Source: Streptacidiphilus carbonis (lineage in GTDB: Bacteria > Actinomycetota > Actinomycetes > Streptomycetales > Streptomycetaceae). From it: DNA of 35,928 bases. The DNA lies in contig NZ_BBPM01000013.1 of assembly GCF_000787775.1 (NCBI RefSeq), positions 22,785 to 58,712 on the forward strand, read 5' to 3'. Positions within the stretch are counted from its first letter, which is position 1. Every line of letters starts with the position of its first letter. This document shows positions 665-14,660 of the stretch, piece by piece. Made by a program: the position numbers and the translations under genes. The notes under the pieces were generated by a model. That model was not told where the DNA came from and searched no databases. It was given only the letters and a program-made list of their open reading frames with translations.

Positions 665-4219
<3,555 letters not shown>

Positions 4220-4245
4220 CACCTTCTACGGCGGCGTAGTTGCTC

Positions 4246-4411
4246 TAAGGGGCGCGGGGAACCTGTCCGCTGACAACAGCCCCTTACTACCTGGGGGCGC
4301 GGGGACTGCGCGACCAGCCCTCTACGGAGGTGCATGGTTGGCAGCGCAGTTCCCCGCGCCCCCAGGTGGTTGCAGGGCCGGCCATGCGCACAGGTCTCCC
4401 CGCGCCCCTTA
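4246..4411. repeat. Nested GC-rich inverted repeats (REP-like, two palindromes one inside the other)
   Basis: The outer palindrome has arms at 4246-4270 (starts TAAGGGGCGCGGGGAACC) and 4386-4411 (its complement, one or two mismatches). Within its loop sits an inner palindrome with arms at 4290-4319 (starts CCTGGGGGCGCGGGGA) and 4336-4366. The arms of both share the core GGGGCGCGGGGA. The inner element is nearly the same as the element at 19154-19233. The location between the convergent 3' ends of dnaE (+) and the M1 peptidase gene (-) suggests that it serves as a bidirectional transcription terminator. Similar GC-rich palindromes are common between genes in streptomycetes. Confidence 0.85.
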
Positions 4412-4429
4412 CGTTCTGCATGGTCCGGC

Positions 4430-5800
4430 TCAGTTCGCCAGTGCCGGCAGGGTCCCGCTGTACAGCCACTCCGTGAAGAAGGCGTGGAGGGGGCGGGGGC
4501 TGTGGTGCTGGGCCAGGGACGTGAAGTCGGCTGTGGTCACCACTGAGTTGCGGTGGGCGTCAGCCCATTCGCGGAGGAGGGTGAAGAACGGGCCCTCGCC
4601 CAGCACCCCGCGGAGGGCGTGCAGGACCAGGCCGCCGCGCTGGTAGAGGCGGTCGTCGAACATCAGGCTGCGGCCCGGGTCGGCCAGGACCAGGTCCTGG
4701 GGCAGGGCCCGCAGCTTCGCGTGGGCCGCCGCCGCGTGCCCCGCCGCGGCGAGCCCCCCCGAGCGCTCCGACCACAGCCACTCCGCGTACTTGGCGAAGC
4801 CCTCGTTGAGCCAGATGTGCCGCCAGTCCGCGACGGTGACGCTGTTGCCGAACCACTGGTGCGCCAGCTCGTGCGCGACCAGCCGCTCACTCCCGCGGCG
4901 GCCGTCGACATGGTTGGCGCCGAACGTGGAGAGCCCCTGGGCCTCCACCGGGACGTCCAACTCCTCGTCGGTGACCACCACCGCGTACTCGCCGAAGGGG
5001 TAAGGACCGAACAGGTCGGTGAACAGGCTCATCATGGCCGGCTGGTGGGCGAAGTCGTGCACACAGGAGCCGATCAGCCGGGCCGGGGCGTACACGGTCT
5101 GCGGGACGGGACCCGCGGAGACCGTGAGCTCCTGGTACTGGCCGACCTGAACGGTCGCCAGATAGCTTGCGGTGGGCACCGGTTGCTCATAGACCCAGGT
5201 GGTGCTGGAGGCCCTCGTGGTGCGGGTGAGCAGCCTGCCGTTGGCGACCACCGTGTAGGGGCTCGGCGCGGTGATCGACATCTGGTACGCGGCCTTGTCC
5301 GCGGGACGGTCGTTGCACGGGTACCAGGACGGCGCGCCGATGGGCTGGCTGGCGACCAGTGAGCCGTCCTCCAGTTCCTCCCACCCGAGCGTGCCCCACT
5401 CGCTGCGCACCGGGCGCGGGTTCCCGCTGTAGTGCACCTCGACGGTGAACGCCGCGCCGGGCCGCAGCGGCCGGGCCGGCCGCAGCCGCAGCTTGCCCGC
5501 GCGGTGCGTCCAGCGGACCGTGCGGCCGTCGACCAGGACCCGGGTGATCCGGAAGTCGGCGAAGTCCAGCACCACGTCGGCGAGCGGCTCGGGGCCGGTC
5601 AGGCAGGTGAGCCTGGCGGCCCCGGCCAGCCGGTTGGGCGCCGGGCGGTAGTCGAGGGTCAGCTCGTACCGGTGCACGTGGTAGCGGATGTCGCCGTGGG
5701 TCGGGAAGTACGGGTCGGTTGCCGACCGGGGACGGGGCGACGTCTGCTTGGCGCTCAATGCTGCTCTGCTCCAGTGCGGTTGGTGCGGTGCCGCCCTCAA
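4430..5800 (-). CDS. M1 family zinc aminopeptidase, candidate cationic-polymer-degrading enzyme
   Basis: This 456-residue protein is a zinc-dependent M1 (gluzincin) metallopeptidase. The zinc site is HELAH (H310, E311, H314) with the third ligand E333 in NEGFAKY. A catalytic Tyr is likely at Y386 (YQRGG). The exopeptidase motif GAMEN is replaced by VEAQG, with E286 as the probable N-terminus-binding glutamate. The N-terminal beta domain is present, but the long C-terminal domain of larger M1 enzymes is absent. No signal peptide or membrane segment is visible. The frame starts at a TTG (5800) without a good ribosome site; a second in-frame TTG at 5758 has GGAG 10 nt upstream and may be the true start. 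The gene begins 12 nt after the stop of the Pls-type synthetase, so the two are probably co-transcribed. From memory, epsilon-poly-lysine-degrading enzymes of streptomycetes are zinc aminopeptidases, which fits this pairing. The substrate is inferred; the peptidase class is secure. Confidence 0.88.
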   Translation of the reverse strand: MRAAPHQPHWSRAALSAKQTSPRPRSATDPYFPTHGDIRYHVHRYELTLDYRPAPNRLAGAARLTCLTGPEPLADVVLDFADFRITRVLVDGRTVRWTHRAGKLRLRPARPLRPGAAFTVEVHYSGNPRPVRSEWGTLGWEELEDGSLVASQPIGAPSWYPCNDRPADKAAYQMSITAPSPYTVVANGRLLTRTTRASSTTWVYEQPVPTASYLATVQVGQYQELTVSAGPVPQTVYAPARLIGSCVHDFAHQPAMMSLFTDLFGPYPFGEYAVVVTDEELDVPVEAQGLSTFGANHVDGRRGSERLVAHELAHQWFGNSVTVADWRHIWLNEGFAKYAEWLWSERSGGLAAAGHAAAAHAKLRALPQDLVLADPGRSLMFDDRLYQRGGLVLHALRGVLGEGPFFTLLREWADAHRNSVVTTADFTSLAQHHSPRPLHAFFTEWLYSGTLPALAN

Positions 5801-5812
5801 ATCGTCGGACCG

Positions 5813-8800
5813 TCAGACCCAGGGCGCGATCGGGTTCCCCAGCCAGCGGCTGTCCGCCGGGACGGACTCGCCGCGCATCACCAGGGACGCGGGTCCCAGC
5901 GTGGTGCGGGCCCCGACGGTGGTTCCGGGCAGGACGATACCGTGCGGGCCGAGGGTGGCACCCTCCTGGAGGGTGACAGTGTCCATCCGCATGATCCGGT
6001 CGTGGAACAGGTGGGTCTGCAGTACACAGCCGCGGTTGACGCTGACCCCGTCGCCGAGGGCGACCAGGTCTGCCTCGGGCAGCCAGTAGCTCTCGCACCA
6101 GACGCCGCGGCCGATGCCCGCGCCCAGGCCGCGCAGCCAGAGGTTGAGCAGCGGGGTGCCGGGCGCGGCGTTCAGCAGCCAGGGCGCGGCCAGCACCTCG
6201 GTGAAGGTGTCGGCGAGCTCGTTGCGCCAGACGTGGCTGCTCCAGAGCGGGTGCTCGACCGCCTTGAACCGGCCGATGAGCAGCCACTTCGCGGCCAGCG
6301 ACACCAGGCAGGCGGCCGCTCCCGCGGCCAGCAGCACCGCGCCGGAGCACAGCGCCGCCAGCGGCAGTCCGCCGACCTGTGCGATCTCGGCGAGGACCGC
6401 CAGCACGCACAGTCCCAGCGCGACGGACACCATCACCGGCACGATCCGGAACAGCTCCATGGCCGCCCGCATCACCTTGAGCCGGCGGGCCGGGGCGTAG
6501 GTCAGGCTCTGGTCGCCGTCCTCGGCGCGGCGCGGCAGCTTCATCGGCGGCATGCCGAGGTAGGAGCTGCCCTTCTTGGCCTTCTTGGGGGTGGCCGAGA
6601 GGACGCCGACCAGGCCCCGGTCCGGAACGCTGCGGCCGGGCGCGGTCATCCCCGAGTTGCCGAGGAAGGCGCGCTCGCCGATCTCCGCCTCGTCGATGCG
6701 CAGCCAGCCGCCGCCCAGCTCGTAGGGGGCGATCAGGGTGTCGTCGGCGAGGAAGGCGCCGTCGCCGACGGTGGTCATGCTGGGCAGCGCCAGGACGGTG
6801 GACGCCTCGACGCCCTGGCCGACCTTCATGCCCAGCGCCCGCAGCCAGGTGGGTGTGATCAGGCCGGCGTAGAGCGGGAACAGCGCGCCCCGGGCCAGGT
6901 CCATCAGCTGGATGACCGTCCAGGCCTGCCAGGCGGTGCGGCTGTGCAGCGGGTGGTGCCCGGCCCGCAGCCCGATCCCCAGCAGCCGGACGGCGACCAG
7001 GACCAGCAGGGCGTAGGCGAGGAAGCCGGTGGCGGTGGCCAGCGGGACGGCGATGAGCGCGTGTCCCAGGACCGCGCCGATCCCGCCCGGCTGGACGAAG
7101 GCGGCCAAGACGGCGATCGCGGGAAGGGCGGCGGCCAGCGGCAGCAGGCTCAGGGCCGTGCCGGCGGCCCCGTACATCGCGGCCCAGAAGCGGGTGCGGG
7201 CCGGGCGGTCCTTGGGCCAGGCGTGGTTGGCGCGGCCGGTCTTGACGGCCGGGGCCCCGGCCCAGCGCTGGCCGGTGGGGACCTGGCCGGTGACGCCCGA
7301 GCCGGGGGCGATCTCGGCGCGCTTTCCGACCCGGGCGCCCGGGAACAGGATCGAGCGGGTGCCGACCACGGCGCCCGCGCCGACCTTGACCGGGCCGAGG
7401 TGCAGCAGGTCGCCGTCCAGCCACCAGCCGCTGAGGTCGACGTCGGCCTCGACCGCGCAGCCCTTGCCGAGCTTCAGCATGCCGCTGACCGGCGGCAGGG
7501 TGTGCAGGTCCACGTCCGGGCCGACCTTGGCGCCGAGCGCGCGGGCGTAGCGGACCAGCCAGGCGCCGGAGAGGTCGGTGGCGCCGCTGAGCTCGGCCAG
7601 CCGCTCGGCCGCCCACAGCCGCAGGTGCACGCCGCCGCCGCGCGGGTGGCTGCCGGGCCGGACGCCGCGCAGCAGCAGCCGTGCGCCGCCCGCCGCGATG
7701 CCGATCCGCCCGAGCGGGGACCACAGCAGCACGGCGGCGGGCACCACGGCCCACCAGGAGGCGCCCGCGCCCAGGTTCCACCAGCCCAGGACGGTGGCGA
7801 GCGCGGCGAGCGCGACGGTCCAGCGCAGCCCGACGACGGTGAGCAGGGGGATCATCAGCAAGCTCTGCAGGGCCCCGGCCCGGCGCGGCGTCGGCTCGAT
7901 CTCACGGACCGAGCCGGTGCCCTGCGCGGACTTCTCCAGTCTGCGGGCCAGCTCGCGCAGGACCGGCGCCTGGTAGACGTCACTGACGGCGATGGCCGCG
8001 TAGCGGGCCCGGATCAGGGTGACCAGCCGGGCCGCGCCCAGGCTGCTGCCGCCGATGGCGAAGAAGTCGTCCTTGGCGCTGCCCACCGGCACGCCGAGCA
8101 CCTCGGTCCACTGCTCGGCGAGCCAGGCCTCGGTGCCGTAGAGCTGCTCGGCCGCGCCCTTGGTCTCCAGCTGGGCCAGCGGCCAGGGCAGCGCATTGCG
8201 GTCGACCTTGCCGGAGGTGCGCACCGGCAGGTCGTCGACCAGAGCGAGCAGCGGCACCATGGCGGCGGGCAGCTCGGCCCGCAGCTGCCGGACCGCCGCC
8301 TCCTGGTCGAACGGCTGCTCGGCGGACTGGTCGGTGACCAGGTAGCCGACCAGCAGCTGGTTGCCGCTGCGGGCGGTGCGCACGGCGGCTGCGGCGCCGC
8401 TGACCCCGGGCAGGGCCTGCAGCACGGCGTCGACCTCGCCGAGCTCGATCCGGCGGCCGCCGAGCTTGATCTGCTCGTCGGCCCGGCCCAGGAAGACCAG
8501 GCCCTCGGGCTGGGCCAGCACCAGGTCGCCGCTGCGGTAGGCGCGCTCCCAGCCGACCGACTCCAGCGGGGCGTACTTCTCGGCGTCCTTCTCCGGGTCC
8601 AGGTAGCGGGCCAGACCGACGCCGCCGATGACCAGCTGGCCGCTCTCGCCCATGCCGACGACCTGGCCCTGCTCGTCCACGACGGCGAGCTCCCAGCCGT
8701 CCAGGGGCAGGCCGATGCGGACCGGGGCCTCCCCGGTCAGCGGCGCGGCGCAGGCGACCACGGTGGCCTCGGTGGGGCCGTAGGTGTTCCAGACCTCGCG

Positions 8801-9715
8801 GCCCTCGGTGGCCAGCCGCTCGGCCAGTTCGGGCGGGCAGGCCTCGCCGCCGAAGATCAGCAGCCGGACGTCGCCCAGCGCGTCGGCGGGCCAGAGCGCG
8901 GCCAGGGTGGGAACGGTGGAGACCACGGTGATCTCCTGCTCGACCAGCCAGGGGCCGAGGTCGGCCCCGCTGCGGACCTGCGAGCGGGGGACGGTGACCA
9001 GGCAGGCGCCGTAGCGCCAGGCCAGCCACATCTCCTCGCAGGAGGCGTCGAAGGCGACCGAGAGCCCGGCCATCACCCGGTCCCCCGGGCCCAGCGGCTC
9101 CTCCTGCTGGAACAGGGCCGCCTCGGCGTCGACGAAGGCGGCGGCGCTGCGGTGGGTGACCGCGACGCCCTTGGGCTTACCGGTGGAGCCGGAGGTGAAG
9201 ATGATCCAGGCGTCGTCGGCGAGGCCGGGGCGGCCCTCCGTGCCCTGCGAGGACTGCGCGGCCTCCGTGCCCTGCTGGGCGTGCCCCGTCAGGGTGAGCG
9301 ACCGGTCGGCGCCGAGCACGGCGCGGACCCCGGCCTCGCCGAAGACCAGCGCGGCGCGCTCGTCGGGGTCCTCGGCGTCCACCGGGACGTAGGCGGCGCC
9401 GGCCGCGAGCACGGCCAGGATCGACACGTACAGGTCGGCGGTGCCGGAGGGCACCCGGACCCCGACCCGGTCCCCCCGGCCGACCCCGGCGGCGGCCAGG
9501 GTCCGCCGCAGCGCGTCCACCTCGGCGGCGAGCGCGCGGTAGGTCAGGTAGCCGCGGCCGTCGTCGAGCGCGGGCTCGTCGGGGTGGGCCGCGACGGTGG
9601 CGTCCAGGATGTCGAGAAGGGTGCGCGGAGCGTGTGCGGGGCGCCCGGGGAACAGCGCGAGCCCGCTCGGGGCTTCGGCGTTCTCCAGGTGCGGGGCGTA
9701 CACGGCCGTGGCCAT
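5813..9715 (-). CDS. Pls/PosA-type membrane non-ribosomal peptide synthetase (epsilon-poly-lysine synthetase-like)
   Basis: This 1300-residue protein is a single-module NRPS fused to a membrane part. The adenylation domain spans about residues 25-515: ATP motif FTSGSTGKPKG (173-183), WNTYGPTEA, YRSGDLV, GRADEQIKLGGRRIE and SGKVDRNAL. Aligning to GrsA by eye gives pocket residues D223, A224, E227, S266, I287, G289, T311, V319, V320 and K503, i.e. DAESIGTVVK, resembling lysine codes. A carrier domain follows (FFAIGGSSLG, phosphopantetheine Ser about S558). There is no condensation, thioesterase or epimerase domain. Instead three pairs of membrane segments (about 618-668, 845-912 and 1090-1147) alternate with three soluble domains (about 680-840, 915-1085 and 1150-1300) containing degenerate hexapeptide, left-handed beta-helix motifs. 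This is the known architecture of epsilon-poly-L-lysine synthetase and its relatives. ATG at 9715 has GAGG just upstream. The product could be poly-lysine or another basic homopolymer (beta-lysine, ornithine, diaminobutyrate). Function is inferred from architecture. Confidence 0.9.
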   Translation of the reverse strand: MATAVYAPHLENAEAPSGLALFPGRPAHAPRTLLDILDATVAAHPDEPALDDGRGYLTYRALAAEVDALRRTLAAAGVGRGDRVGVRVPSGTADLYVSILAVLAAGAAYVPVDAEDPDERAALVFGEAGVRAVLGADRSLTLTGHAQQGTEAAQSSQGTEGRPGLADDAWIIFTSGSTGKPKGVAVTHRSAAAFVDAEAALFQQEEPLGPGDRVMAGLSVAFDASCEEMWLAWRYGACLVTVPRSQVRSGADLGPWLVEQEITVVSTVPTLAALWPADALGDVRLLIFGGEACPPELAERLATEGREVWNTYGPTEATVVACAAPLTGEAPVRIGLPLDGWELAVVDEQGQVVGMGESGQLVIGGVGLARYLDPEKDAEKYAPLESVGWERAYRSGDLVLAQPEGLVFLGRADEQIKLGGRRIELGEVDAVLQALPGVSGAAAAVRTARSGNQLLVGYLVTDQSAEQPFDQEAAVRQLRAELPAAMVPLLALVDDLPVRTSGKVDRNALPWPLAQLETKGAAEQLYGTEAWLAEQWTEVLGVPVGSAKDDFFAIGGSSLGAARLVTLIRARYAAIAVSDVYQAPVLRELARRLEKSAQGTGSVREIEPTPRRAGALQSLLMIPLLTVVGLRWTVALAALATVLGWWNLGAGASWWAVVPAAVLLWSPLGRIGIAAGGARLLLRGVRPGSHPRGGGVHLRLWAAERLAELSGATDLSGAWLVRYARALGAKVGPDVDLHTLPPVSGMLKLGKGCAVEADVDLSGWWLDGDLLHLGPVKVGAGAVVGTRSILFPGARVGKRAEIAPGSGVTGQVPTGQRWAGAPAVKTGRANHAWPKDRPARTRFWAAMYGAAGTALSLLPLAAALPAIAVLAAFVQPGGIGAVLGHALIAVPLATATGFLAYALLVLVAVRLLGIGLRAGHHPLHSRTAWQAWTVIQLMDLARGALFPLYAGLITPTWLRALGMKVGQGVEASTVLALPSMTTVGDGAFLADDTLIAPYELGGGWLRIDEAEIGERAFLGNSGMTAPGRSVPDRGLVGVLSATPKKAKKGSSYLGMPPMKLPRRAEDGDQSLTYAPARRLKVMRAAMELFRIVPVMVSVALGLCVLAVLAEIAQVGGLPLAALCSGAVLLAAGAAACLVSLAAKWLLIGRFKAVEHPLWSSHVWRNELADTFTEVLAAPWLLNAAPGTPLLNLWLRGLGAGIGRGVWCESYWLPEADLVALGDGVSVNRGCVLQTHLFHDRIMRMDTVTLQEGATLGPHGIVLPGTTVGARTTLGPASLVMRGESVPADSRWLGNPIAPWV

Positions 9716-9822
9716 CGGTCCTCATCTCGTCGACAACCCGGTCGATGCTAGTCCGGCGAATGGCCCGGCGGTATTGGAGTCCGGGCCACCCCGGAGCTGC
9801 AATGGCCGTTTACCGCATGATT

Positions 9823-9902
9823 TCTGACGAGCCGTCAGTAGATAGGGGCACTGTCAGCCCTGGAATTTGACGAGCCGTCAGCAGAATCTGACGGCCCGTC
9901 GA
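9823..9902. repeat. Three similar palindromes TGACGrsCCGTCA upstream of the synthetase
   Basis: Copies are TGACGAGCCGTCAG at 9825-9838, TGACGAGCCGTCAG at 9868-9881 and TGACGGCCCGTCGA at 9889-9902. Each is a palindrome TGACG-n-CGTCA. Spacing between starts is 43 and 21 bp, close to four and two turns of the DNA helix, so bound proteins would sit on one face. A half site GTCAG lies at 9853-9857. They lie 110-190 bp upstream of the synthetase start codon and may be operator sites. Confidence 0.75.
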
Positions 9903-9971
9903 CACATTTTCGAAGTGAGACCGACGACACACGCCGGAGACGTGCTGACGGGTGCTTTGGGTGCATCATGC

Positions 9972-9986
9972 GTAACACAGTGTATC
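9972..9986. promoter_or_regulatory. Operator-like palindrome ACAC-n-GTGT
   Basis: On the minus strand this reads GATACACTGTGTTAC, with an ACAC/GTGT core around a single central base and a matching outer G/C pair. It resembles operators bound by TetR-family repressors in actinomycetes. It lies in the spacer upstream of the synthetase gene and just downstream of the lipoprotein gene. No regulator gene lies beside it, so the assignment is tentative. Confidence 0.35.
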
Positions 9987-10017
9987 AATCGCACCACTTT
10001 TCGCAGCCCCAGGAGCC

Positions 10018-10527
10018 TCAGGCGTACTGCCAGTGCGGGCGCCCGCTCTCCATGGCGCACTTCAGCAGCCTCCCGTTGGCGTCGTCGGTGGTCTTCCCCA
10101 GATCCGTGTTGCGGCAGAACTGGCCGGCTTTGTAGCAGTTGCCGGCATTGGAGACGATCGTGCAGGTGGCGGCCGGATGGGTGGCGGCCTTGGTGGCGGC
10201 GTGCGTGGGTGTCGGCGTGGTGGCCCTGGCCGCCGGCCTGGTGGCGGCTGCGGTGGCGTGGTGAACCGTCGGTGTGGCGCTCGGGCGGCGGGTGGCCGGT
10301 GCGGCGGTGGTGGGCGCGGCGGTCGTCGGCGCCGCGGTCGTGGCCGCCGGGGTGGACGGCGCGGCCGTCGCGGGGTCGGTGGTCACCGCGGTCACCGCGG
10401 TCGGTGACTGGTGCGAGGCCGACGCCGATGCCGAGGTCGGGCCGCAGGCGGCCAGCAGCGCCGTTGCGGCAAGGGCGGCGACACCGGCCGCGATGCGGCG
10501 GGCAGATCCGGATATGCAGGCGGGCAC
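10018..10527 (-). CDS. Small lipoprotein with Thr/Ala/Pro-rich linker and C-terminal Cys domain
   Basis: The start was placed at GTG 10527 because GGAGGA (10532-10537) lies 4 nt upstream; the frame extends further to 10563 without a ribosome site. The 169-residue product has a short basic N-terminus, a hydrophobic segment and a lipobox L-A-A-C with the lipidated cysteine at about residue 28, so it should be anchored to the outer face of the membrane after processing by a signal peptidase II such as the LspA encoded at 13935. A long linker with PTTAAPTTAAP-type repeats and His/Ala/Thr follows. The last 48 residues form a compact domain with four cysteines (CTIVSNAGNCYKAGQFCRN and KCAMESG), resembling Cys modules at the C-termini of secreted actinobacterial proteins. 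Function is unknown. Confidence 0.78.
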   Translation of the reverse strand: MPACISGSARRIAAGVAALAATALLAACGPTSASASASHQSPTAVTAVTTDPATAAPSTPAATTAAPTTAAPTTAAPATRRPSATPTVHHATAAATRPAARATTPTPTHAATKAATHPAATCTIVSNAGNCYKAGQFCRNTDLGKTTDDANGRLLKCAMESGRPHWQYA

Positions 10528-10669
10528 AGGGTCCTCCGAGGTGCGGACGGTCAGTGTCGCCACACGTTAGTCACCTCATCACTGCAGAACACACACAATT
10601 GGAAAATCCCCCACACCCGTCTCCCAGCCGCGCCACCGCAGGCGCCCTGCCCGGTCAGGACCAGGTCGC

Positions 10670-10690
10670 GGCACGGGAGTTGGACGTGCC
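10670..10690 (-). terminator. Possible terminator hairpin after the antiporter gene
   Basis: GGCACG (10670-10675) and CGTGCC (10685-10690) form a 6-bp stem with a 9-nt loop, immediately downstream of the antiporter stop on the minus strand. There is no U-tract, as is usual in streptomycetes. The stem is short, so the call is weak. Confidence 0.3.
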
Positions 10691-10695
10691 CCGGC

Positions 10696-12288
10696 TCAGT
10701 TCGGGGCGCTGCGGATGTCGAGTCTGCGGATCACCCGGTCGACCAGTTCCGGGTCGGCGCCGGGTTCCATCCGGGCGAACTGCATCTCGGCGCGGCCGGC
10801 GGCCAGCATCTCCTGTTCGACCTGCTGGAACAGCCGGACCTGACGGACCCGCTGCTTCAGTTCCGCGCGCTGGTCCTCGTCGTACATGTCCGGGCGGTTG
10901 CGGGCCAGGCGGTCGGTCTGACGCTGCTTCAGCCGGTCGACGAGTTCCTCCGGTAGGTCCTCGGCGTCGGCGAGCTCCTTGAGCCGGCGCAGCCCGGCCT
11001 TGGAGACCCGGTACCAGAGCGCCCGCTCCGCCGCGTCCTCGGCGTCCTCGTCGCGGCTCAGGTGCAGCCGCCGGACCACCCAGGACAGCGACATGCCCTG
11101 GACCAGCAGGGTGAACAGCACCACGCAGAAGGCGATGAAGACGATCTCGTCCCGGCCCGGGAAGGACTCCCCGCTGTGCACCCCGAGCGGGATGGCCAGC
11201 GCCAGCGCCACCGAGGCCACCCCGCGCATCCCGGACCACCACAGCACCACCGACTCGCGCCAGCTCAGCGGCGCGGCCTCCTCGCGCTCGCCGATGCGGC
11301 GGTCCCACTGCTGGGTGACCCAGGCGCCGGGCAGCAGCCAGAGGAAGCGGACGCCGACCACCACCACGATGACCAGGGCGGCGTCCCCGAGCATGCCGGT
11401 CCAGGCATGGCCCACCTCCTTGAGGACGCTGGCCAGCTCCAGGCCGATCAGGCCGAAGGCCATTCCGGAGATCAGCAGCTCCACCACGTCCCAGAAGGCG
11501 CTGCCGACCAGGCGGTAGCCGACGTCGTCGGCGCCCACCGTGCGGTCGTTGATCCAGAGGGAGCAGACCAGGACCGCGAGGACGCCCGAGCCGTGCAGCT
11601 CCTCGGCGAGGGAGTAGGCCGCGAAGGGGACCAGCAGGCTGAGCGCGACCTGCAGGGTCGGGTCGTCCAGCATGCTCATGATCTTGCCGCTGAGCCAGCC
11701 CAGGCCGACGCCGATGACCACGGCGAGCACGGCCGAGAGCACCAGCAGCCCGATCGCGTTCAGGGTCGAGAAGTGGCCGCTGACCACGGCGTCCACCGCC
11801 AGCCCGTAGACGACGAGCGCGGTGACGTCGTTGAACAGGCCCTCGGTCTCCAGGATGCCCATCAGCCGGCGCGGCAGGCCGACGCTGCCGGCCACCGCGG
11901 CGGCGGCGATCGGGTCGGGCGGGGAGATGATCGCACCCAGCGCGACGGCGGCGCCCAGCGGCAGCGCGGGCATGATCGAGCGCGCGGCCCAGGCCACCAC
12001 GGCGGTGGTGACCAGCACCAGCGCGACCGCGAGCAGCAGGATGACCCGGGAGTTCGCCTTGAAGTAGCGGGTGGTGGAGCGCTGGGCCGCCGCGTAGATC
12101 AGCGGCGGCAGCACCAACGGCAGGATCAGGTCCGGCTCCAGGGTGATGTTCGGGACGAACGGCAGCACCGCCATCACCATGCCGACCACGGTCATCATCA
12201 CCGGCTGCGGGAAGCCGATGCGCTCGGCGAGCGGGGTGGTGACGACCGACGCCAGCAGCACGACGAAGAGCAGCATCAGCTGGGTCAC
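10696..12288 (-). CDS. CPA1-family Na+/H+ antiporter
   Basis: This 530-residue membrane protein exchanges sodium (or another monovalent cation) for protons across the cytoplasmic membrane. The first ~410 residues contain about a dozen hydrophobic segments. The CPA1 signatures are visible: ISPPDPIAAAAV (D125) and EGLFND (N153-D154), the ion-binding Asn-Asp pair of electroneutral CPA1 antiporters. The C-terminal ~120 residues are hydrophilic and charged, with helical segments rich in Glu, Arg and Gln, as in cytoplasmic regulatory tails of this family. The GTG start at 12288 has only a weak ribosome site (GGAGGGG is about 15 nt upstream). The gene follows the GNAT gene with a 39-nt gap and could share its transcript. 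The closest characterised relatives are NhaP-type proteins; cation preference cannot be read from sequence. Confidence 0.92.
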   Translation of the reverse strand: MTQLMLLFVVLLASVVTTPLAERIGFPQPVMMTVVGMVMAVLPFVPNITLEPDLILPLVLPPLIYAAAQRSTTRYFKANSRVILLLAVALVLVTTAVVAWAARSIMPALPLGAAVALGAIISPPDPIAAAAVAGSVGLPRRLMGILETEGLFNDVTALVVYGLAVDAVVSGHFSTLNAIGLLVLSAVLAVVIGVGLGWLSGKIMSMLDDPTLQVALSLLVPFAAYSLAEELHGSGVLAVLVCSLWINDRTVGADDVGYRLVGSAFWDVVELLISGMAFGLIGLELASVLKEVGHAWTGMLGDAALVIVVVVGVRFLWLLPGAWVTQQWDRRIGEREEAAPLSWRESVVLWWSGMRGVASVALALAIPLGVHSGESFPGRDEIVFIAFCVVLFTLLVQGMSLSWVVRRLHLSRDEDAEDAAERALWYRVSKAGLRRLKELADAEDLPEELVDRLKQRQTDRLARNRPDMYDEDQRAELKQRVRQVRLFQQVEQEMLAAGRAEMQFARMEPGADPELVDRVIRRLDIRSAPN

Positions 12289-12327
12289 CCGCTGACCACC
12301 CCTCCCGCTCGCCGGCGCCGTTCCCGA

Positions 12328-12936
12328 TCAGCCTGCCAGGGATCGGGTCATCGTGCGGTGGGGGATACCGCCGTCCAGGTACTCCGGGCCCTCGGCGGTG
12401 TAGCCGAGGCGCTCGTAGAAGCCCAGTGCGTGGACCTGGGCGTGCAGTTCCAGCTCGACGGCGCCGCGGGCGCGGCCCTCGTCCTCGATGGCGCGGACCA
12501 GAGCCGCGCCCACGCCGGTGCCCCGAGCGACGGACAGTACCGCGAGGCGGCCGAGCAGTACGGTTCCTGCCCGGTCGACGGTTTCCCCGTCGTGACCCGG
12601 TGCGGTGTCCGCCCGCTGGACGTCCGCCACGTGGGGTTTGCGTGGGGGTACGGGGGGTCGCTCCCCGGAGAGTTGGCGTAGGGCCTGCTCGCCGTGGATC
12701 AGCCGGCCGGTGCCGAGCGGAGCGCCGTCCGCGCCGAACGCCAGCAGGTGCACCGAGGCGGCGTCGAGGTCGTCCCACTCCTCGTCCTCGGGGACGTTCT
12801 GCTCGACGATGAAGACCTCGCGCCTGATGGCGTGGACGGTCTCCAGGTCGGCGGGCGAGACGGCGACGCGTATCCGGGCCGCGGGACCGGACGCACGGTC
12901 GGGCTTCGGATCGGACGCCGGGTCAGCTGTCGGCAC
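12328..12936 (-). CDS. GNAT-family N-acetyltransferase (ElaA-like) with an in-frame insert
   Basis: This 202-residue protein is a GNAT acetyltransferase, transferring acetyl from acetyl-CoA to an amine. The CoA-binding motif A is [20 protein letters not shown] (R-G-T-G-V-G pyrophosphate loop). The C-terminal [24 protein letters not shown] matches the ElaA/YjcF-like subgroup. An unusual Pro/Arg-rich stretch of roughly 35 residues ([19 protein letters not shown] onwards) interrupts the fold before the motif A strand. It is encoded by a GC-rich palindrome-bearing segment (12642-12670) and looks like a repeat insertion. Start is GTG 12936, overlapping the 3' end of the pseudouridine synthase gene by 14 nt, which implies translational coupling. 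The substrate is unknown. Confidence 0.88.
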
Positions 12937-13861
12937 TGATGATCTCCAGGGCGCGGGCCAGGTCCTCGGGGTACTCGCTGCGGAACTCCACCCAGTCGCC
13001 GGTGCCGGGGTGCTCGAAGCCGAGCTGGACCGCGTGCAGCCACTGCCGGGTGAGCTTGAGCCGCTTGGCCAGGGTGGGGTCGGCGCCGTAGGTGATGTCG
13101 CCGACGCAGGGGTGCCGCAGCGCGGACATGTGCACCCGGATCTGGTGGGTGCGGCCGGTCTCCAGCTTGATGTCCAGCAGCGAGGCGGCCCGGTAGGCCT
13201 CGATCAGGTCGTAGTGGGTCACCGACGGCTTGCCGTTGGCGACCACGGCCCACTTCCAGTCGTTGCTGGGGTGCCGGTCGATCGGGGCGTCGACGGTGCC
13301 GGACATCGGGTCGGGGTGGCCCTGGACCAGGGCGTTGTACTTCTTCTCCACGGTCCGGTCCCGGAACTGCCCCTTGAGCAGCGAGTAGGCGCGCTCGGAC
13401 TTGGCGACCACCATCAGCCCGGAGGTGCCGACGTCCAGGCGGTGCACCACGCCCTGGCGCTCGGCCGCGCCGGAGGTGGAGATCCGGTAGCCGGCGCCGG
13501 CCAGGCCGCCGATGACGGTGGGACCGGTCCAGCCGGGGCTGGGGTGGGCGGCGACGCCGACCGGCTTGTCCACGACCACCAGGTCGTCGTCGTCGTAGAC
13601 GATCTTCATATTGTCGATGCGCTCGGCGACGATCTGCACGGGCGCGGGCGGTGCCGGGATCTCGACCTCCATCCAGGCACCGGCCATCACCCGGTCGGAC
13701 TTGCCCACCGGGGTGCCGTCCAGCGTCACCTTGCCCTCCGCGGCCAGCTCGGCGGCCTTGGTGCGGGAGAACCCGAACATCCGGGCGATGGCGGCGTCGA
13801 CACGCTCACCCTCAAGGCCTTCGGGTACGGGCAGGTTTCGGATCTGCGGAACGGTGCTCAC
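12923..13861 (-). CDS. RluA/RluD-family RNA pseudouridine synthase
   Basis: This 312-residue enzyme isomerises uridine to pseudouridine in RNA, most likely 23S rRNA. It has an N-terminal S4 RNA-binding domain (about 15-75, with [21 protein letters not shown]) and the RluA catalytic motif [15 protein letters not shown] with catalytic D143. The later [20 protein letters not shown] is also typical. The GTG start at 13861 encodes [22 protein letters not shown]. It lies downstream of lspA with a 73-nt gap holding a hairpin, an order that is common in actinobacteria and other Gram-positives (lspA-rluD). Which uridines it modifies (RluD-like 1911/1915/1917 positions or others) cannot be decided here. 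Confidence 0.93.
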
Positions 13862-13874
13862 CTGAACGAGTATG

Positions 13875-13893
13875 CCGGACCGGCCGGGTCCGG
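13875..13893 (-). terminator. Stem-loop between lspA and the pseudouridine synthase gene
   Basis: CCGGACC (13875-13881) and GGTCCGG (13887-13893) form a perfect 7-bp stem with a 5-nt loop. It could partly terminate lspA transcripts or stabilise a processed end. It has no U-tract. Confidence 0.4.
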
Positions 13894-13934
13894 CCCGCCA
13901 TCACGCCGTCGGCAGCGGGCGGACGGGAGCCGCG

Positions 13935-14660
13935 TCAGTCCTTGCCGTCGCCGTCCTCGGCGGAGTTCGCCTCGGCGGCGTCGGCGTCGGACCGGTCCGT
14001 GTGCTCGCGCATCGTCGTGCCGTCCGGGTTGGTGCCGAGGAAGGAGAGCAGCACCACCAGGATGCCGCCGCAGACGATCGCCGAGTCGGCCAGGTTGAAG
14101 ACGGCGAAGTGCTTGACCGAGATGAAGTCGACCACCGCACCGCGGAAGGTGGACGGCGAGCGGAAGATCCGGTCCGTCAGATTGCCGAAGGCGCCGCCCA
14201 GCAGCAGGCCCAGCGCGATCGCCCAGGGCAGGCTGTAGAGCTTGCGGGCGAGCCGGCAGATGACCACCACCACGGTGGTGGCGATGACGGTGAACACGAT
14301 GGTCATCGCCGCGCCCATGCCGAAGGCGGCTCCGGGGTTGCGGATGGCCTGGAGCATCACCCAGTCCCCGGCGATCCGGATCGGCTCGTGGTACTCCAGC
14401 CTGGCCACGACCAGCAGCTTGCTGCCGAGGTCCAGCAGGTAGGCGAGCAGGGCGACGGAGAGGAGTACGCCGATCCTGCGCCTGCGCCGCGCCACCTGTT
14501 CGCCGGCGGTCTCGGCGGAGTCGGCGGGCGCGGCAGAGTCAGCCGCCGGAGCCTTCTGGAAACCTGGGGTACTGATGATGCTCTCCGCTACACCGAGTGG
14601 GGTGGTCCTACGTCGAGCGTACGGTACGCCCACCGGGTGGCGCGGACTGGTCCGCGCCAC
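13935..14660 (-). CDS. lspA: Lipoprotein signal peptidase (signal peptidase II)
   Basis: This integral membrane aspartic protease cleaves signal peptides from prolipoproteins after the lipobox cysteine has been lipidated. Four membrane segments are visible, and the catalytic dyad is present: NLTDR (D163) and FNLADSAI (D192), counted from the 14660 start. Signature RNPGAAFG is also present. The C-terminal tail is acidic and hydrophilic. The start is uncertain: the frame is open to a GTG at 14660, inside a 30-bp palindrome at 14634-14663, with another in-frame GTG at 14633, and neither has a good ribosome site. In related streptomycete proteins the N-terminus seems to begin near the AESIISTP segment, where the aligned codon is GTA. 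The gene lies downstream of the DksA-like gene and upstream of the pseudouridine synthase gene. The small lipoprotein encoded at 10018 is a likely client. Confidence 0.93.

Follow-up and report, generated by a model that had tools for sequence, protein, structure and literature searches.

Introduction

The Pls family of synthetases makes polymers of lysine and of other diamino acids (ornithine, diaminobutyrate, diaminopropionate and beta-lysine), with a common layout throughout (PMC10522769). Two described systems are closest to the gene considered here. In Streptomyces albulus, pls, the synthetase gene for the antimicrobial polymer epsilon-poly-L-lysine, is adjoined by pldII, a gene of 1404 bp. 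In the accessible part of one study (PMC9223678) pldII is described as translationally coupled to pls, with a product that lies outside the membrane and is required for self-protection. The other system is PosA of Acinetobacter baumannii, which makes delta-poly-L-ornithine and whose operon is described as having a single gene (PMC10522769). The biological role of polycationic isopeptides from bacteria is described as unclear, at least in the available text of PMC9606270.

Here we describe a gene of this family in the acidophilic soil bacterium Streptacidiphilus carbonis, found in a stretch of 35,928 nucleotides (contig NZ_BBPM01000013.1, positions 22,785 to 58,712), which is referred to as the window. 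The gene is very probably an epsilon-poly-L-lysine synthetase (Pls), followed by a gene for a PldII-type degrading aminopeptidase. Its architecture, the identity of its pocket, the partner gene, purifying selection and conservation are the observations behind this assignment. It resembles the S. albulus system in its domain layout, in all ten pocket residues, and in being followed immediately by an M1 peptidase gene with the same orientation. The features of the synthetase are as follows.

5813..9715, minus strand: pls-type synthetase gene, 1300 residues with an ATG start (TIGR02353, 779.6 bits; 7WEW, 658 bits)
8174..9625, minus strand: adenylation domain (about residues 31–514) with a lysine-type pocket (Pfam; 1AMU alignment; pocket identical to 7WEW)
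7937..8125, minus strand: carrier (thiolation) domain (residues 531–593) with a GGSS motif (PF00550; sequence)
5828..7873, minus strand: Pls/PosA C-terminal polymerisation region, with three hydrophobic pairs and three soluble parts (TIGR02353, hydropathy and profile)

Architecture of the synthetase

The open frame at 5813–9715 had been reported, with no strand given, in a first-pass annotation made from the letters of the window. The plus strand of this interval is likewise free of stop codons. The minus strand is identified as the coding strand by the guanine-plus-cytosine (GC) content at the three codon positions of the synthetase frame (0.76/0.53/0.97), together with homology.

Pfam places an AMP-binding domain at residues 38–370, AMP-binding_C at 427–503 and PP-binding at 531–593, and at an expectation-value (E) threshold of 0.01 the one remaining match is a hexapeptide repeat. 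It finds no condensation or thioesterase domain. Ser558 is presumably the phosphopantetheine site of the carrier domain. The Pls/PosA terminal domain model, TIGR02353, aligns from end to end on residues 615–1296, its 779.6 bits standing well above the cut-off of 423.1. Within this region there are three pairs of hydropathy peaks (mean over 67 aligned rows), at about 614–649 and 652–673, 854–870 and 893–909, and 1091–1107 and 1122–1138. The peaks are weakest in the first pair, which is broken into several overlapping blocks. The layout proposed in the first-pass annotation, of an adenylation domain and a carrier followed by three repeats of a membrane pair and a soluble domain, with neither condensation nor thioesterase domain, is thus borne out by Pfam, TIGR02353 and hydropathy.

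The C-terminal region was compared with solved folds using a profile built from 66 homologous C-terminal regions. Soluble parts 1 and 3 have a weak similarity to hexapeptide (left-handed beta-helix) acyltransferases and gamma-carbonic anhydrases, with a best E of 3.2e-7. Residues H1235, D1239 and R1240 are among those invariant in all 66 rows (they are H636, D640 and R641 of the first row of the alignment), and may lie in the polymerising site.

For the synthetase, comparison with its two nearest orthologues gives a ratio of non-synonymous to synonymous substitution rates (dN/dS) of 0.213 and 0.245, and comparison with two remoter orthologues gives 0.42 and 0.41. The corresponding values for dnaE, a neighbouring gene, are 0.09 and 0.33–0.36. 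Selection on the synthetase is therefore purifying, yet weaker than on dnaE.

Substrate pocket and predicted product

The pocket was located by alignment with GrsA (1AMU, reference residues 235, 236, 239, 278, 299, 301, 322, 330, 331 and 517). It consists of D223, A224, E227, S266, I287, G289, T311, V319, V320 and K503, giving the code DAESIGTVVK, and every one of these residues agrees with the reading made by eye in the first-pass annotation. The code is identical at all ten positions to that of 7WEW, the adenylation domain of the S. albulus epsilon-poly-L-lysine synthetase, and the two adenylation domains are 68% identical. 7WEW is also the top solved-structure match, at 658 bits against 424 for the runner-up. 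The adenylation domain is thus not placed away from Pls enzymes for basic amino acids, and the earlier best guess of a basic amino acid is supported by the shared code and by the structure match.

Of 195 distinct homologous rows with a length of 900 residues or more, 187 carry the same code (seven shorter rows, 2 of 163 and 5 of 86, were excluded). The remaining eight comprise three with DAESIGTVIK, one with DAESVGTVVK, and four that are frame-broken, partial or unalignable at the pocket.

The possibility must be considered that this is a Pls-family enzyme using another diamino acid, namely ornithine, diaminobutyrate, diaminopropionate or beta-lysine, since the family makes all of these polymers on one layout. 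PosA indeed has the same layout, a Pls/PosA C-terminal region and the pocket Glu. However, the published pockets differ from that of the window, which matches 7WEW throughout. PosA has DMEHNGTVSK (PMC10522769), whose second and ninth residues, Met and Ser, correspond to Ala224 and Val320 in the window protein. The beta-lysine enzymes have DGESISVVNK (PMC10522769), which also differs from the window code. At position 2 the lysine enzymes have Ala, and the enzyme for diaminopropionate has Phe (PMC10522769). A neighbouring lysine-2,3-aminomutase gene is a feature of the epsilon-poly-beta-lysine synthetase (PMC10522769), and no such domain was found among the window proteins given to Pfam, which were a part of its open reading frames. 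Use of another diamino acid is accordingly very improbable.

Given the identity with 7WEW and the different codes published for ornithine, beta-lysine and diaminopropionate, lysine is by far the likeliest substrate predicted for the enzyme. The first-pass annotation went no further than a basic amino acid and left the product open. That amino acid class stands, and two things point more narrowly to epsilon-poly-L-lysine as the product: the codes for ornithine and beta-lysine are different, and the gene belongs to a pair of the pls-pldII type, on which the first-pass annotation is silent. A further point in favour is that a homologue from Corynebacterium variabile yielded epsilon-poly-lysine in S. 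coelicolor (PMC8117764); this synthetase is known to us from that paper and stands outside the trees built here.

The peptidase partner

The second member of the pair follows the synthetase closely.

4430..5800, minus strand: M1 zinc peptidase, pldII-like, 456 residues; TTG start 12 bases after the pls stop; HELAHQWFG...WLNEG intact

The protein is 47% identical to the product of an M1 gene of Streptomyces sp. NBC_01454, which lies directly after a gene annotated as epsilon-poly-L-lysine synthase Pls. It is 44–47% identical to the peptidases of eight S. albulus-type loci (L147–L154), all of which have the M1 gene; a further locus, L155, lacks it. An M1 gene lies just downstream of the synthetase in all 80 named relatives (the best 80 of 595 confirmed), and in 28 of the 30 top loci from another actinobacterial family, which includes Rhodococcus opacus B4. 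A peptidase gene is also found beside the synthetase of Corynebacterium variabile (PMC8117764). The gene order in the window is thus the pls-pldII arrangement, and the M1 protein is predicted to act on the polymer.

By analogy with S. albulus Pls, the adenylation domain would activate L-lysine with ATP and load it onto Ser558 of the carrier domain. The membrane-bound C-terminal region would then link the lysines through their epsilon amino groups, with no condensation domain involved, and so form a polycation. From outside the membrane, the M1 peptidase would trim or remove the polymer and thereby shield the producer. Substrate turnover, linkage, chain length, export and regulation, as well as accumulation at acid pH as in S. 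albulus, are features that we infer for the Streptacidiphilus enzyme.

Distribution and descent

The gene family is not new: it is widespread in the genomes sampled and in the literature, and much work has been done on its lysine members. Clusters for epsilon-poly-L-lysine rank with the commonest known ones in Streptomyces, numbering 730 in the accessible text of PMC11734326, and one is predicted in Kitasatospora setae (PMC11117518, as far as its available text goes). Pls is found in most Corynebacterium and Brevibacterium isolates from cheese and skin (PMC8117764). In our samples, matches to the 7WEW adenylation domain at E 1e-100 occur in 212 of 394 genomes of the taxonomic family. The window protein has matches at E 1e-150 in 276 of 301 genomes sampled from the family that includes R. 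opacus B4 (G774), and in 78 of 101 genomes of a genus of that family with small genomes (g165). A draw across the phylum found the synthetase in 10 of 198 genomes, including that of the window itself. Corynebacterium glutamicum was the sole one to give a match among 14 named control genomes. A full or partial synthetase is also present in 18 plasmid records, including plasmids of Streptomyces, Rhodococcus and Mycobacterium, which suggests that the gene may travel.

Within Streptacidiphilus, a synthetase of the window type is present in all 14 genomes, with at least 73% identity. In two of these it is damaged: in G012 (locus L166, about 8000–11900) the orthologue has its frame interrupted near residue 243, and in G013, a genome 76% complete, the gene is in pieces. 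Matches of a second type, with about 52–70% identity, are likewise present in all 14 genomes, being fragmentary in G002. The second synthetase of the S. carbonis genome (C103, L005 8393–12892) has the same DAESIGTVVK code and the same layout. It differs from the window gene in its neighbours, which include genes for glycoside hydrolase family 3 (GH3), a solute-binding transport protein, diacylglycerol kinase (DAG-kinase) and a sigma factor. It also differs in having no M1 gene within the 20-kb stretch of L005; in fact none lies beside the second type in any of the eight genomes whose surroundings were read. An antiporter gene, distinct from the one in the window, is found about 5 kb from the second synthetase in L005, L159, L163, L165 and L182–L184.

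Because the genome encodes another full-length synthetase of identical code, the window gene might be a silent or decaying copy, its job being done by C103. The damaged copies in G012 and G013, and a dN/dS above that of dnaE, could be read in this way. Against this, the window frame is intact, the dN/dS values of 0.213 and 0.245 are low, the type is kept in 14 of 14 genomes, and it is the second copy that has no M1 partner in the eight genomes. Decay of the window gene thus appears highly unlikely.

Phylogenetic trees place the window gene in one large clade with most of the sampled actinobacterial copies, and place S. albulus Pls in another, together with the second copies of the genus. The g165 synthetases include two types: the main one falls within the clade of the window, the other (L266, L270) on the opposite side.

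The window-type copies of Streptacidiphilus fall into two sets, which differ in descent as seen in the synthetase tree, the approximately unbiased (AU) test and the genomic site. In seven genomes (G000, G004, G010, G001, G011, G012 and G013) the gene lies between dnaE and an antiporter gene. In the other seven it lies elsewhere and groups with Streptomyces copies; in four of these the dnaE region was read as far as rluD and lspA, and has no synthetase. A single genus clade of window-type copies is rejected with a p-AU of 0.0002 (12 genus rows against 17, with G012 and G013 excluded as broken or partial). The split tree and the different site would be explained either by exchange of the gene, or by differential loss of ancient copies, with one copy kept per genome. 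DnaE was considered as a marker for the species tree (91–92% identity for group II against 85–86% for group III), as an argument that the synthetase and the species differ in history, and was dropped since there are two DnaE types in the family. IleS identity is 87–88% for three group II genomes and 89–92% for two group III genomes.

Several observations weigh against the assignment as epsilon-poly-L-lysine synthetase with a PldII-type partner. Overall identity between the window protein and L147, which serves here as a stand-in for S. albulus Pls (its adenylation domain is 93% identical to 7WEW), is just 58%. A deep split in the tree separates the two, with C103, the other synthetase of the S. 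carbonis genome, on the side of S. albulus. Among the sequences compared, the clade of the window has no member of known product. The code may also mislead: the substrate of PosA was not predictable by the tools applied, its nearest code being of the lysine type, yet it uses ornithine (PMC10522769). In g165, just 2 of the 20 top loci have a match to the window M1 within some 1.5 kb downstream, and none of seven wider stretches (L266–L272) has one. These counts argue against a universal pairing of synthetase and M1 gene, at least at the search sensitivity used. Finally, neither a sigma-70-type promoter nor a terminator was found near the gene, which is weak evidence in a high-GC actinomycete. 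No RNA families were found at 3500–14000.

Genomic surroundings and possible role

The window gene differs from S. albulus pls in its site, between dnaE and rluD-lspA. The other housekeeping neighbours are ileS, divIVA, pgeF, ftsZ, ftsQ, murG and ftsW, followed by a murD-like ligase, mraY, two more Mur ligases, to which we give the names murF and murE from their order, and a penicillin-binding protein. A secondary-metabolite cluster was considered and rejected: the scanned genes around the pair are mostly for division, wall and replication, and no wider cluster was seen among them. In this respect too the first-pass annotation, which had remarked on the housekeeping surroundings, agrees with the scanned neighbour genes.

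Two further genes lie on the upstream side of pls.

10696..12288, minus strand: Na+/H+ antiporter, near dnaE in 14 of 14 genus genomes, including sites without pls
10018..10563, minus strand: small lipoprotein-like open reading frame between the antiporter and pls, with a LAAC lipobox and a long Thr/Ala/Pro-rich linker (sequence)

A link between antiporter and synthetase was discarded. The antiporter gene stays near dnaE where the synthetase is absent, so that their adjacency is probably accidental. The lipoprotein-like frame was matched, among the 36 loci searched, only in the three closest genomes, G000, G010 and G004.

The housekeeping surroundings can also be read as favouring a product other than the free antibiotic of 25–35 residues, namely a short lysine isopeptide, or a lysine-decorated component of the envelope, with a physiological function. 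Presence in 14 of 14 genus genomes and in 276 of the 301 genomes of another actinobacterial family fits such a role, and sequence gives no reading of chain length. On the other hand, a free-polymer system is what the code and the peptidase gene match, and we consider the short or envelope-bound product unlikely.

A bolder suggestion is that epsilon-poly-lysine serves Streptacidiphilus as a standing, pH-gated polycation at the surface or outside the cell, rather than as an occasional antibiotic. It is prompted by the finding that two types of synthetase, with one and the same lysine pocket, occur throughout the 14 genomes. The genus generally grows at pH 3.5–6.5, according to the accessible part of PMC7601586. 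If the suggestion were correct, the PldII-type partner, with the neutral preference reported for it in S. albulus, would spare the polymer in this range and remove it when the pH rises, and the differently descended copy in half the genus would reflect selection for function. The available text of PMC9223678 reports that in S. albulus the polymer accumulates after a pH drop to 4.0, and that Pls and PldII are both said to favour neutral pH. An acidophile would be at all times in the pH range of accumulation, but the preference of Pls speaks against a standing polycation. The broken copy in G012 weakens the suggestion further, as does the fact that polymer function in the genus is predicted only. 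Overall it seems to us distinctly improbable.

The gene is therefore best described as an intact but ordinary member of the known Pls family, and its role in such bacteria is the modest question left. The synthetase-peptidase pair or its remains is found in every one of the 14 genus genomes examined, and the prediction of epsilon-poly-lysine is hereby extended to Streptacidiphilus. Living close to the pH of polymer accumulation in S. albulus, the genus is a natural place to test what the polymer does. The word lysine is absent from the main text, as far as it is available, of the genome-mining paper on the genus (PMC7601586), and a literature text search found no paper naming both poly-L-lysine and Streptacidiphilus. 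On the spread of the gene in Mycobacterium and Corynebacterium, or its role in the producer, the literature found consisted of reviews and S. albulus work.

The dnaE gene of the window (665–4219) is of some interest in itself. Its product is 84% identical to a DnaE in G015, and about 59–60% identical to that of most other sampled genera of the family. Several family genomes hold both types. It seems that the genus replaced its replicative polymerase subunit by the second type.

Upstream palindromes

The window gene also differs from S. albulus pls in having tandem palindromes, TGACGGNNCGTCA, at 9825–9901, upstream of the start at 9715.

9825..9837, no strand: palindrome TGACGGCTCGTCA, candidate operator upstream of pls (perfect copy)
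9868..9880, no strand: palindrome TGACGGCTCGTCA, second copy (perfect copy)
9889..9901, no strand: palindrome, third copy with one mismatch (pattern match)

Allowing up to one mismatch and counting both strands, the window has 11 matches to the palindrome where 1.39 are expected, and six of the 11 are at these three sites. The pattern TGACG-N2-4-CGTCA occurs within 700 bases upstream of all seven copies at the dnaE site, and of none of the other seven window-type copies of the genus. It is also found upstream in 3 of 80 named relatives (L037, L039 and L040; the best 80 of 595) and in 2 of 14 second-type copies, and the backwards pattern occurs in none of 160 upstream stretches. Genome-wide there are 261 and 254 matches with up to one mismatch, against 7 and 10 for the control. 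This abundance suggests that the palindrome is a common type of repressor operator, and our guess would be that the repressor is TetR-like.

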